A stretch of DNA of 54,682 nucleotides from Burkholderiaceae bacterium (lineage in GTDB: Bacteria > Pseudomonadota > Gammaproteobacteria > Burkholderiales > Burkholderiaceae_C), in NCBI GenBank assembly GCA_016790515.1, contig JAEUOY010000142.1:1-54682 (forward strand). The letters are read 5' to 3'. The position numbers were made by a program, and so were the translations under genes. Positions within the stretch are counted from its first letter, which is position 1. Every line of letters starts with the position of its first letter. The notes under the pieces are model-generated. The model searched no databases. It worked only from the letters and a program-made list of their open reading frames with translations, and was not told the DNA's origin. Below, in pieces: positions 44,902 to 49,856 of this stretch.

Positions 44902-46332
44902 ATGCCACGCGCCACCAAGATCGTCGCCACCCTCGGCCCCGCCAGCAGCGACCCCGACGTGCTCGAGCGGCTGCTGTCCGCCGGCGTCGACGTGGTGCGC
45001 CTGAACTTCAGCCACGGCAGCGCGCAGGACCACATCGACCGGGCCAACCTGGTCCGCTCGATCGCGCAGAAGCTCGGCAAGCCGGTCGCGCTGATGGCCG
45101 ACCTGCAGGGCCCGAAGATCCGCGTCGGCAAGTTCGCCGACGGCAAGGTGCAGCTGGCCGCCGGCGAGCGCTTCGTGCTCGATGCCGCGCGCGCCGAGCC
45201 GGGCGCGCTCGACGGCGTGGGGCTGGACTACAAGGAGCTGCCGCGCGACGTGAAGCCCGGCGACACGCTGCTGCTCAACGACGGCCTGATCGTGCTGACC
45301 GTCGAGGCGGTGCGCGGCGAACAGGTACACACCGTCGTGAAGGTCGGCGGCGAGCTCAGCAACAACAAGGGCATCAACAAGCAGGGCGGCGGCCTGACGG
45401 CACCGGCGCTGACCGCCAAGGACATGGAGGACATCAAGACCGCGATGGCCTTCCAGGCCGACTACGTCGCGGTGAGCTTCCCGAAGAGCGCCACCGACAT
45501 GGAGATGGCGCGCCAGCTGGCCAACGTCGCCGGCGAGCCCTGGCGCCACAAGCCGGGGATGATCGCCAAGATCGAGCGCAGCGAGGCGATCCCGCTGCTC
45601 GATCCGATCCTGCGGGCCAGCGACGGCATCATGGTCGCGCGCGGCGACCTGGCGGTGGAGGTCGGCAATGCCGCGGTGCCGGCGCTGCAGAAGAAGATGA
45701 TCCGCATGGCGCGCGAGCACGACAAGATCACGATCACCGCGACCCAGATGATGGAGAGCATGATCGTCAACCCGGTGCCCACGCGCGCCGAGGTCAGCGA
45801 CGTGGCCAACGCGGTGCTCGACGGCACCGACGCGGTGATGCTCAGCGCCGAGACCGCGGCCGGCAAGTACCCGGTCGAGACGGTCGAGCAGATGGCGATG
45901 ATCGCGCTGGAGGCCGAGCGCGCCGAGGACGTGCGGCTGGACGCCAACTTCACCGACCGGGTCTTCAGCCGGATCGACCAGAGCATCGCGATGGGCGCGC
46001 TGTTCACCGCCTACCACCTGGGCTGCAAGGCGATCGTCGCGCTGACCGAGTCGGGCAGCACGGCGTTGTGGATGAGCCGGCACAACATCCATGTGCCGAT
46101 CTTCGGCATGACCTCCAAGGCCGGGTCGCAAGCCCGCATGGCGCTGTACCGCAACGTGCGGCCGCTGCTGATCCCGCCGCACACCGACCGCGACACCGCG
46201 CTGGCGGAGGCCGAGCGCCTGCTGGTCGAGCGCGACGTGCTGCGCCCGGGCGACACCTACGCGATCACCTGCGGCGAACCGATGGGCTACCCCGGCGGCA
46301 CCAACATGCTGAAGGTCTGCCGGGTGGGCTGA
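44902..46332 (+). CDS. pyk: pyruvate kinase
   Basis: A 476-residue glycolytic enzyme. MPRATKIVATLGPASSDP at the N-terminus, VRLNFSHGSAQDH and LMADLQGPKIRVGKF (substrate loop), IMVARGDLAVEVGNAAVPALQKKMI and ITATQMMESMIVNP are standard; the C-terminal effector domain begins about residue 345. It has an intact active-site set. It follows maeB after 56 bp and is followed by a convergent regulator gene. GATAAT at 44866-44871 may be a promoter -10. Confidence 0.95.
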   Translation: MPRATKIVATLGPASSDPDVLERLLSAGVDVVRLNFSHGSAQDHIDRANLVRSIAQKLGKPVALMADLQGPKIRVGKFADGKVQLAAGERFVLDAARAEPGALDGVGLDYKELPRDVKPGDTLLLNDGLIVLTVEAVRGEQVHTVVKVGGELSNNKGINKQGGGLTAPALTAKDMEDIKTAMAFQADYVAVSFPKSATDMEMARQLANVAGEPWRHKPGMIAKIERSEAIPLLDPILRASDGIMVARGDLAVEVGNAAVPALQKKMIRMAREHDKITITATQMMESMIVNPVPTRAEVSDVANAVLDGTDAVMLSAETAAGKYPVETVEQMAMIALEAERAEDVRLDANFTDRVFSRIDQSIAMGALFTAYHLGCKAIVALTESGSTALWMSRHNIHVPIFGMTSKAGSQARMALYRNVRPLLIPPHTDRDTALAEAERLLVERDVLRPGDTYAITCGEPMGYPGGTNMLKVCRVG

Positions 46333-46346
46333 GCGCCCGGCCCCGC

Positions 46347-47375
46347 TCAGGCGGGCGCCAGCTCACGAACGCTCTCGACCATCGCCGCCACGCTCGGCGC
46401 CATGTTCAGCGCCACCAGCTCGACCTCGGGGTGCTGGTGATGGAACACCCGCAGCAGTTCGTCGACGAAGCCGTGGCCCACGTCGGCCAGACCGTCGAAG
46501 TCCAGCTCGACCCGCCTGAACTGCTGCAGCCTCGACGCCACGCGCTGCGCCTGGGCCCGCGAGTCCAGCGCCACCTGGGCGTCGCTGATCAGCTTCAGCG
46601 GCACGACCGTGCGCTCGAAGCCGCAGCCCAGGCCGTCCAGGCTGTAGCGGCGCAGCACGTCGGCCAGCGTGCGCCGGGTGTCCAGGCAGATGCCGACATA
46701 CACCGAACTGCCGTGCCGGCACGCCGGACGGGCCCGCCGCCATTGCTCGCGCTGCCAGTCGCATTGCTGGAAGGCCAGGTTGTTGGCGTGCAGGTCGATC
46801 ACGTCGGCCAGCCGGGCGGTGAAGAACAGGCCGCGGCCGCTGTGGCGGTCGGGGCGGGTGCTGAGCTTGCCCTTGGCCAGCTCGAGCATCGCCAGCACGG
46901 GGTCGCTGATCTGGTAGGTCTCGCCGATCGCGTCGAAGATGCCGCGGCCGTCGTCGCTGACCAGCAGCTGCAGCTGCTGCGGCGTCTGCCGCATCGACAC
47001 CGTCACCCGGCTGCCGCCGCTGTGCTCGATGGCGTTGTTGAGCAGCTCGGTGAAGGCATGCTGGGCCATCCGCGCGACAGGGTCGGGCAGCTCGAAGCAC
47101 GGCAGGAAGTCGCACGACCAGGGCAGGTCCTCCTGCAGCCCGGCGATCGGGTAGCTGCGCACCACCTGGCGCAACAGGCCCGGCGCGTAGCGTCTGCGTC
47201 GCGGCGAACCCTCGGCGCGCAGCCACTGCGTGGCCACCAGGTCGCGCAGCAAGGCCCGCGCGCGCGCCGGTCCGACCTGAAGGCGCTCGGCAAGGGCTTG
47301 TCGAAGCGTGTCGGGGTGGCGCAGCGCGAGCTCGGTGATCCAGGCGGTGATGTCGCTCAAGACGGGGCGGGCCAT
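46347..47375 (-). CDS. HTH-HATPase-DUF4325 regulator
   Basis: A 342-residue protein with a distinctive layout. Residues 1-85 are a winged-helix-like DNA-binding region (ITAWITELALRHPDTLRQALAERLQVGPARARALLRDLVATQWL). Residues about 95-230 are a GHKL ATPase with HAFTELLNNAIEHSGG (N-box), LLVSDDGRGIF (G1) and GRGLFF (G2). Residues about 255-342 are a DUF4325/STAS-like domain (GFERTVVPLKLISDAQVALDSRAQAQRVA). It could be an ATP-switched transcription factor or an anti-sigma-like kinase. The start at 47375 has GGAGG upstream. Convergent with pyk, divergent from fba. Confidence 0.78.
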   Translation of the reverse strand: MARPVLSDITAWITELALRHPDTLRQALAERLQVGPARARALLRDLVATQWLRAEGSPRRRRYAPGLLRQVVRSYPIAGLQEDLPWSCDFLPCFELPDPVARMAQHAFTELLNNAIEHSGGSRVTVSMRQTPQQLQLLVSDDGRGIFDAIGETYQISDPVLAMLELAKGKLSTRPDRHSGRGLFFTARLADVIDLHANNLAFQQCDWQREQWRRARPACRHGSSVYVGICLDTRRTLADVLRRYSLDGLGCGFERTVVPLKLISDAQVALDSRAQAQRVASRLQQFRRVELDFDGLADVGHGFVDELLRVFHHQHPEVELVALNMAPSVAAMVESVRELAPA

Positions 47376-47677
47376 GATGCAAGTTCCTCCAGGCGGCAGA
47401 ACGGCCGCTTCGCCAGTGTGGCGGCCCGCTGTGCCGCAGGAACGGCGAAAAGGCACCGGATTCGCCGCCTGATCGGGCGCGGACTCGTTCGCGCCGGGCG
47501 GCCACGCTGCCGCGTGCGGCCCGCTCGCGCAGTCCTCGCGCGACAGCGGCCGACCGATACAATGGCGGGCGGTTACGTGGCTGTTTCAGCCCCGGCCAGG
47601 CACCCGCGGGCAAACCCGCGACCCGGCCCGGTCGTCCCGGCGGCCGCCGGCCCCCCACCCCACATGCAGGATCGCTC
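47376..47677 (+). promoter_or_regulatory. 302-bp gap: divergent region with fba promoter and leader
   Basis: The only gap over 300 bp in this window. The first 170 bp are GC-rich with no gene. TACAAT (47558-47563) is a likely -10 for fba, leaving a leader of about 110 bases. In that leader CGCGGG (47605-47610) pairs with CCCGCG (47615-47620) around a CAAA loop, and a pyrimidine-rich CCCCCCACCCC run precedes the fba ribosome site AGGA. No -35 is clear. Confidence 0.5.
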
Positions 47678-48742
47678 ATGCCTCTCGTCTCGATGCGCCA
47701 GCTGCTCGACCCTGCCGCCGAAAACGGCTATGGCATTCCGGCCTTCAACGGCAACAACCTCGAGCAGGTGCAGGCGGTGATGACCGCCGCGTCCGAAGTC
47801 GACGCACCGGTGATCCTGCAGGCCAGCGCCGGCGCCCGCAAGTACGCCGGCGAGCATTTCATCCGCCACCTGATCCAGGCCGCCACCGAGAGCTGGCCGA
47901 ACGTGCCGCTGGTGATGCACCAGGACCACGGCCAGAGCCCGGCGATCTGCCAGGGCGCGATCGACCTGGGCTTCGGCTCGGTGATGATGGACGGCTCGCT
48001 GCGCGAGGACGGCAAGACGCCGGCCTCGTTCGACTACAACGTCGAGGTCACGCGCAAGGTGGTCGAGATGGCGCACCGGGTCGGCGTCACCGTCGAGGGC
48101 GAACTCGGCTGCCTGGGCTCGCTGGAGACCGGCGAGGCCGGGGAAGAGGACGGCATCGGCGCCGTCGGCAAGCTCGACCATTCGTCGCTGCTGACCGACC
48201 CGGAGGAGGCCGCCCAGTTCGTCAAGGCGACCCAGCTCGACGCGCTGGCGATCGCCATCGGCACCAGCCACGGCGCCTACAAGTTCACCCGCAAGCCCAC
48301 CGGCGACATCCTGGCGATCAGCCGCGTCAAGGAGATCCACCAGCGCATCCCCAACACCCACCTGGTGATGCACGGCAGCTAGAGCGTGCCGCAGGACCTG
48401 CTGGCCGAGGTGCGCAAGTACGGCGGCGACCTGAAGGAGACCTATGGCGTGCCGGTCGAGGAGATCCAGGAAGCGATCAAGCACGGCGTGCGCAAGATCA
48501 ACATCGACACCGACATCCGGCTGGCGATGACCGGCGCGATCCGCCGCTTCCTGGTCGAGAACCCGGGCAAGTTCGATCCGCGCGAGTACCTGAAACCGGC
48601 GCGCGAGGCGGCCAAGGCGATCTGCCAGCAGCGCTACGTGCAGTTCGGCTGCTCGGGCCAGGGCAGCAAGATCAGGCCGCAGAGCCTGACGGTCATCGCG
48701 CAGCGCTACACCACCGGCGAGCTGGCACAGGTCGTCAACTGA
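47678..48742 (+). pseudogene. fba: class II fructose-bisphosphate aldolase, interrupted by an amber codon
   Basis: The full frame is 355 codons, the family's usual length, and reads cleanly except for TAG at 48380-48382 (codon 235). The context is HLVMHGS-TAG-SVPQDLLAEV, where relatives have HGSSSVP, so a single C-to-A change of TCG to TAG explains it. Intact parts: [13 protein letters not shown] (residues 79-91, zinc ligand), [27 protein letters not shown], then after the stop RKINIDTDIRLAMTGAI. The truncated product would lack the NIDTD phosphate/substrate motif and be inactive. The C-terminal fragment could only start at GTG 48386. Options are sequencing error, pseudogene with another aldolase elsewhere, or amber readthrough. 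Followed by terminator and purC. Confidence 0.85.
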
Positions 48743-48813: not shown

Positions 48814-48956
48814 CATCGCCGCTGCAGCGGGCGGAGCAGCACCGCAGCGGCCGACGCTGGCGCCGAGGCCTTGGCGGCGGATGCGGCGGCGCGGCGGTCC
48901 CCGCACGGACCCCGGGGGCACAATCAACGGCTGATTCCGCCCCGATGGACACCGAC

Positions 48957-49856
48957 ATGAGCACCCCTGCGCTGCTGGAAACCCACCTTCACTCGTTGCC
49001 GCTGCTGGCGCGCGGCAAGGTCCGCGACAACTATGCGGTCGGCGACGATCGGATCCTGATGGTGGCCAGCGATCGCATCTCGGCGTTCGACGTCGTGATG
49101 GGGCAGCCGATCCCGGGCAAGGGGGTGCTGCTGACGCAGATGGCGCTGTTCTGGTTCGGGAAGCTGGCGCACGTGGTGCCGAATCACCTGACCGGCGAGC
49201 CGCCGGAAAGCGTGGTGGCACCCGACGAGGTGTCGCAGGTGGCCGGCCGGTCCATGCTGGTCAAGCGCCTGAAGGCGCTGCCGGTGGAGGCGGTGGTGCG
49301 CGGCTACCTGGCCGGATCGGGTTGGAAGGAGTACCAGCAGAACGGCCGGGTCTGCGGCGTGCCGTTGCCCCCGGGGCTGAAGAACGCCAGCCGGCTGCCG
49401 CAGCCGATCTTCACGCCGGCGACCAAGGCCGAGATGGGCGAGCACGACGAGAACATCCCGTTCGAGCGCATGGTCGACCTGATCGGCCCGGACATCGCGC
49501 ACCGGGTGCGCGAGATCTCGCTGCAGCTCTACACCGAAGCCGCCGCCTACGCTCTCACGCGCGGCATCATCATCGCCGACACGAAGTTCGAATTCGGACT
49601 CGACCGCGACGGCACGCTGACCCTGATGGACGAGATCCTCACCCCGGACTCGTCGCGCTTCTGGCCGCTGGAGTCGTATCGCGAGGGCACGAATCCTCCG
49701 AGTTACGACAAACAGTTCTTGCGGGATTGGCTTGAAACGGTTCGGATCGACGGATTGGCTTGGGACAAGAAGGCGCCTGCACCAACTATTCCTCCCGATA
49801 TTTGTGAAATGACAGCCGACCGTTATCGAGCGTCGGTGTCAGCGCTGCAAGACTGA
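48957..49856 (+). CDS. purC: phosphoribosylaminoimidazole-succinocarboxamide synthase
   Basis: A 299-residue SAICAR synthetase (303 if started at 48945). [45 protein letters not shown] is the N-terminal hallmark, with ATP/CAIR loops later ([38 protein letters not shown]). The first 240 codons have GC-rich third positions like neighbours; from about 49685 codons such as TTG, CTT, GTT, ATT, ACT, TGT appear and the DNA is AT-richer, so the last ~170 bp look foreign. The protein still reads as PurC through to SALQD. Normally purE-purK follow, but here an unrelated gene does. Confidence 0.94.

Follow-up and report, generated by a model that had tools for sequence, protein, structure and literature searches.

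An in-frame TAG codon in a class II fructose-bisphosphate aldolase gene of a Burkholderiaceae draft genome with a second, uninterrupted copy

Class II fructose-bisphosphate aldolase (fba) is interrupted by a single in-frame stop codon in a draft genome of a Burkholderiaceae bacterium, in a frame that otherwise looks intact. This raises the question of whether the gene is a recent pseudogene, the stop codon is an error of the draft, or the codon is in some way tolerated during translation. The stretch of DNA analyzed here (the window, 54,682 nucleotides) corresponds to contig C68 in a draft assembly of 5.0 Mb and 176 contigs, which is 82.38% complete with 2.11% contamination. The features under discussion are as follows.

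44902..46332, + strand: pyk, upstream of fba, used as a control gene (NCBIfam pyruvate kinase)
46347-47456, - strand: gene for a HATPase_c_2 and DUF4325 (STAS-like) protein, antisense between pyk and fba
47678..48742, + strand: class II fructose-bisphosphate aldolase (fba) frame with one interruption, ATG to TGA, 354 codons (TIGR01521, 589 bits when the stop is read as X)
47678..48379, + strand: N-terminal piece of fba, 234 codons, lacking the final third of the protein (423 bits against TIGR01521, profile positions 1-232 of 347)
48380..48382, + strand: in-frame TAG, codon 235 of fba (all 108 distinct relatives have serine here)
48386..48742, + strand: C-terminal piece of fba, 118 codons, from a GTG one codon past the TAG (TIGR01521 profile positions 235-347, 144 bits)
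48945..49856, + strand: purC, downstream of fba, used as a control gene (NCBIfam purC)

The interrupted frame and its relatives

An earlier note on this DNA had described a TAG as codon 235 in an fba frame of 354 codons, at a position where relatives carry serine, and both observations were borne out. The frame has no stop besides this TAG before the terminal TGA, and since it aligns with its relatives along its length, no frameshift was seen. With an X placed at the stop, the translation scored 589 bits against TIGR01521 (FruBisAldo_II_B; class II aldolase, type B), above the curated cut-off of 496.35 bits. The gene therefore matches the whole profile (1-347), but it is not a single uninterrupted reading frame, and the two pieces scored singly (423 and 144 bits) each fall below the cut-off. 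The best solved relative is 5u4n_A, aligned over residues 1-353, and the third codon positions of the frame are 95.5% G+C.

To place codon 235 in context, 109 relative rows were fetched, 108 of them distinct (L037 and L064 are the same DNA); by their record titles, the named relatives are mostly Burkholderiales. The codon-235 column is serine throughout (109 of 109 rows, 108 of 108 distinct), and no internal stop was present in any of the 109 rows. Within the genus, fba was found in 19 of 21 genomes, the window's own counted, and the other 18 copies are uninterrupted; the two genomes with no fba match are 70% and 86% complete. A family-wide draw returned an fba match in 375 of 399 genomes and, among the matches listed, an internal stop only in the window's own fba.

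Two candidate parallel cases, the fba genes of genomes G022 and G286, were rejected, as the flagged stop was in each instance the gene's own end; the G286 frame stops slightly earlier than its relatives. G286 is rated 100% complete, and the gene in question (G286:C21:353255-354262, L172), the sole class II fba hit detected there, lies directly downstream of a frame that reads, by eye, as cbbZ. Four further members of its genus that were listed in the family-wide draw lack a match. A recent insertion of the antisense HATPase/DUF4325 gene that silenced fba was also considered and rejected, because within the genus this gene adjoins fba at 14 of 18 loci, which makes it an old neighbor.

A second aldolase beside Calvin-cycle genes

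Loss of this enzyme, the earlier note had warned, would block glycolysis and gluconeogenesis unless another aldolase exists, and it had proposed a search for one. Another does exist, and the worry over a block is removed: contig C75 of the same assembly carries a second class II fba, uninterrupted, which scored 600 bits against TIGR01521. This gene sits in a Calvin-cycle operon. Its neighbors include tkt, prk, fbp, and cbbX by profile, with the RuBisCO large subunit also there, and further frames that read by eye as cbbZ, rpe, and the RuBisCO small subunit. The C75 aldolase (cbbA type) belongs to the same family as the window fba but differs from it in being one uninterrupted frame and in lying beside Calvin-cycle genes. 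If the family label holds, the C75 enzyme can perform the aldolase reaction.

Against the second fba copies of four genomes of the same genus (G012, G016, G017, and G020), the C75 copy shows 87-89% identity; against two housekeeping copies the figure is 66-68%, and against the window fba it is ~67%. On the strength of its close kinship to these same-genus second copies, we take the C75 gene to be probably native and not derived from a stray contig. In composition, the 20-40 kb stretch of C75 has a G+C content of 72.7%, the highest among 22 stretches (66.6-72.5% in the others); by tetranucleotide distance it is 7th highest of the 22, and the 1-20 kb stretch of C75 ranks 16th. In all four of the other same-genus genomes with a second fba, the first fba is uninterrupted.

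A class I aldolase was rejected as a rescue enzyme, as PF01791 had no match in the genome (its control was detected in 13 of 14 genomes). PF00274 likewise had no match, but its control was detected in 0 of 14 genomes, which makes this result uninformative. Phosphofructokinase is present in the genome; contigs C38, C110, and C172 of G000 hold one full match and two partial ones, that on C110 at a contig end, and the two partial matches together may represent a second gene. An eda-like match in the genome fell below its cut-off. Contig C75 also carries, on the minus strand (L003:4139-6385), a subtilase (Peptidase_S8) whose C-terminal part contains a run of near-identical VVLSEG hexapeptide repeats.

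A recent nonsense change or a miscalled base

The explanation that we favor, with somewhat better than even confidence, is a real and recent nonsense change in a redundant housekeeping class II fba, leaving an ordinary pseudogene with a paralogue. The TAG would end translation at codon 235 and leave a 234-residue piece, and roughly a third of the protein (codons 235-354) would be lost. Class II aldolases have substrate-binding residues in this missing part, so the 234-residue product should be inactive. The second class II fba, in the Calvin-cycle operon, would then supply aldolase, such that the cell tolerates the loss. We infer for this explanation that the TAG base is real and that the C75 fba is expressed whenever needed, heterotrophic growth included. 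Against it stand the uninterrupted first fba in the four other same-genus genomes with a second copy, the high G+C of C75 at 20-40 kb, and the dN/dS of the window gene, given below.

Some recent bacterial pseudogenes owe their origin to one nonsense change in a gene that is redundant. Such cases are alike in having a single stop, an otherwise conserved frame, and a paralogue, and nothing that we found sets the window fba apart from them: its stop is absent from relatives, and an intact paralogue is present in the genome. The earlier note had left three options side by side, namely a base error, a fresh pseudogene, and readthrough or recoding. Of these, the base error stays a serious possibility, and suppression and recoding gained no support in the 82%-complete assembly. 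By the rule given in that note, under which a second functional aldolase would mark a plain pseudogene, the second uninterrupted fba makes the window gene one, provided that the base is real.

A more ambitious claim would be that a Calvin-cycle bacterium is in the course of passing all its aldolase work in glycolysis and gluconeogenesis to the Calvin-cycle copy, and that its housekeeping fba has only just died and bears hardly any other marks of decay. We regard this as unlikely. If the stop is real, the locus would be a modest example from nature in which a paralogue from carbon fixation assumes a step of central metabolism; neither a real stop nor an error would surprise a specialist.

The main rival to a recent nonsense change is that the TAG is an artefact, either a base miscalled in the consensus or a minority strain variant adopted by the draft consensus, and that the gene is intact in the organism. 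This is a serious possibility, to which we assign a little over a third of our belief. It is in keeping with a fragmented, incomplete draft that carries some contamination, with the conservation and the G+C-rich third positions of the remaining frame, and with the uninterrupted fba of all 18 other genomes of the genus in which the gene was found. Selection on the gene also fits an artefact. In pairwise comparisons, the median dN/dS of the window fba was 0.286 (rank 9 of 19 in the genus), which is not raised; that of the intact window pyk was 0.281 (rank 4 of 16 among relatives). Under the favored nonsense change, the same value means that any loss is very recent.

Set against an artefact are a screen of the assembly and the residues of the gene itself. 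The window, L003, and 20 further stretches (455,649 bases in all, ~9% of the genome) were screened for stops flanked on either side by coding signal in one and the same frame, a search that addresses in-frame stops, not frameshifts. The fba TAG ranked first of 61 candidates and was the sole one to stand as a same-frame interruption. Among the other 60, 39 were shadow frames by rule, in that another open frame scored higher on at least one side, and 21 were judged by eye to be neighboring genes sharing a frame, including secD/secF, cheD/cheB, phoU/phoB, and rplE/rpsN. The fba TAG is more than chance, and its isolation among the 61 candidates speaks against an error-filled assembly. The 455,649-base sample shows no crop of nonsense errors, and a single miscall is possible.

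A surplus of odd residues at invariant columns, seen in fba and absent from pyk and purC, also argues against a base error. Among the 144 columns at which all other rows share one residue, the window fba departs at 3, namely positions 12, 25, and 245. By comparison, 15 of the 17 other same-genus rows scored have no departure, one has one, and one has two; across 109 distinct fba rows, 94 have none and 3 have three or more, and the two besides the window's own belong to other families of the order. No unique residues were observed at invariant columns in the window purC (75 other distinct rows) or pyk (53). Position 245 is two bases away from the common codon, which a single miscall does not give. 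The three unusual residues hint at relaxed constraint, as mild and uncertain signs, and they could be chance. Should the TAG prove to be an error, the lesson would be that an isolated premature stop in a draft genome calls for a read pileup and a paralogue search before claims of recoding or gene loss are made.

TAG as a stop codon, readthrough, and restart

Use of TAG across the genome bears on whether the codon could be translated. RF1 (prfA) is present and uninterrupted. We collected the ends of putative genes, taken as high-scoring open reading frames with a coding score over 0.4 and at least 120 codons, in the 455-kb sample. The 239 ends comprised 204 TGA, 26 TAG (the fba stop counted), and 9 TAA, so that TAG closes 25 of the 238 other high-scoring frames. 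One of these is secF, which the earlier note had named as ending in TAG. TAG is an ordinary stop in this genome, and the view that global reassignment of TAG is unlikely holds, with RF1 intact and TAG closing these other frames.

If the TAG were read through, whether with an amber-suppressor tRNA or through programmed recoding, a full-length aldolase would result, and the frame is indeed open and conserved on either side of the codon. We consider this very improbable. A search for a suppressor tRNA, as the earlier note had suggested, was negative: of 30 tRNA loci in the 82%-complete assembly, ARAGORN could interpret 29, and a CUA anticodon was seen in none of them. A suppressor could itself be missing from such an assembly, as several ordinary tRNAs (Trp, Tyr, Cys, Thr, Ile, and Asn) are also absent from the loci found. 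The uninterrupted RF1 and the 25 other frames ending in TAG nonetheless count against readthrough, and none of the relatives examined has TAG at codon 235, hence nothing suggests a conserved signal for recoding. The first reading had likewise seen no sign of recoding here. A full-length enzyme from a suppressed TAG is a still bolder reading than the handing over of all aldolase duty to the Calvin-cycle copy, and it has little in its favor.

Least credible of all, and to our minds barely worth entertaining, is a split aldolase in which ribosomes would start afresh at a GTG (48386) that lies one codon past the TAG, and the two pieces, which jointly span nearly the whole TIGR01521 profile, would assemble: a split gene occurs in none of the relatives examined, no clear ribosome-binding site was visible by eye upstream of the GTG, and the GTG is a conserved valine codon, present as GTG in 24 of 29 relatives, and so not an adaptation.
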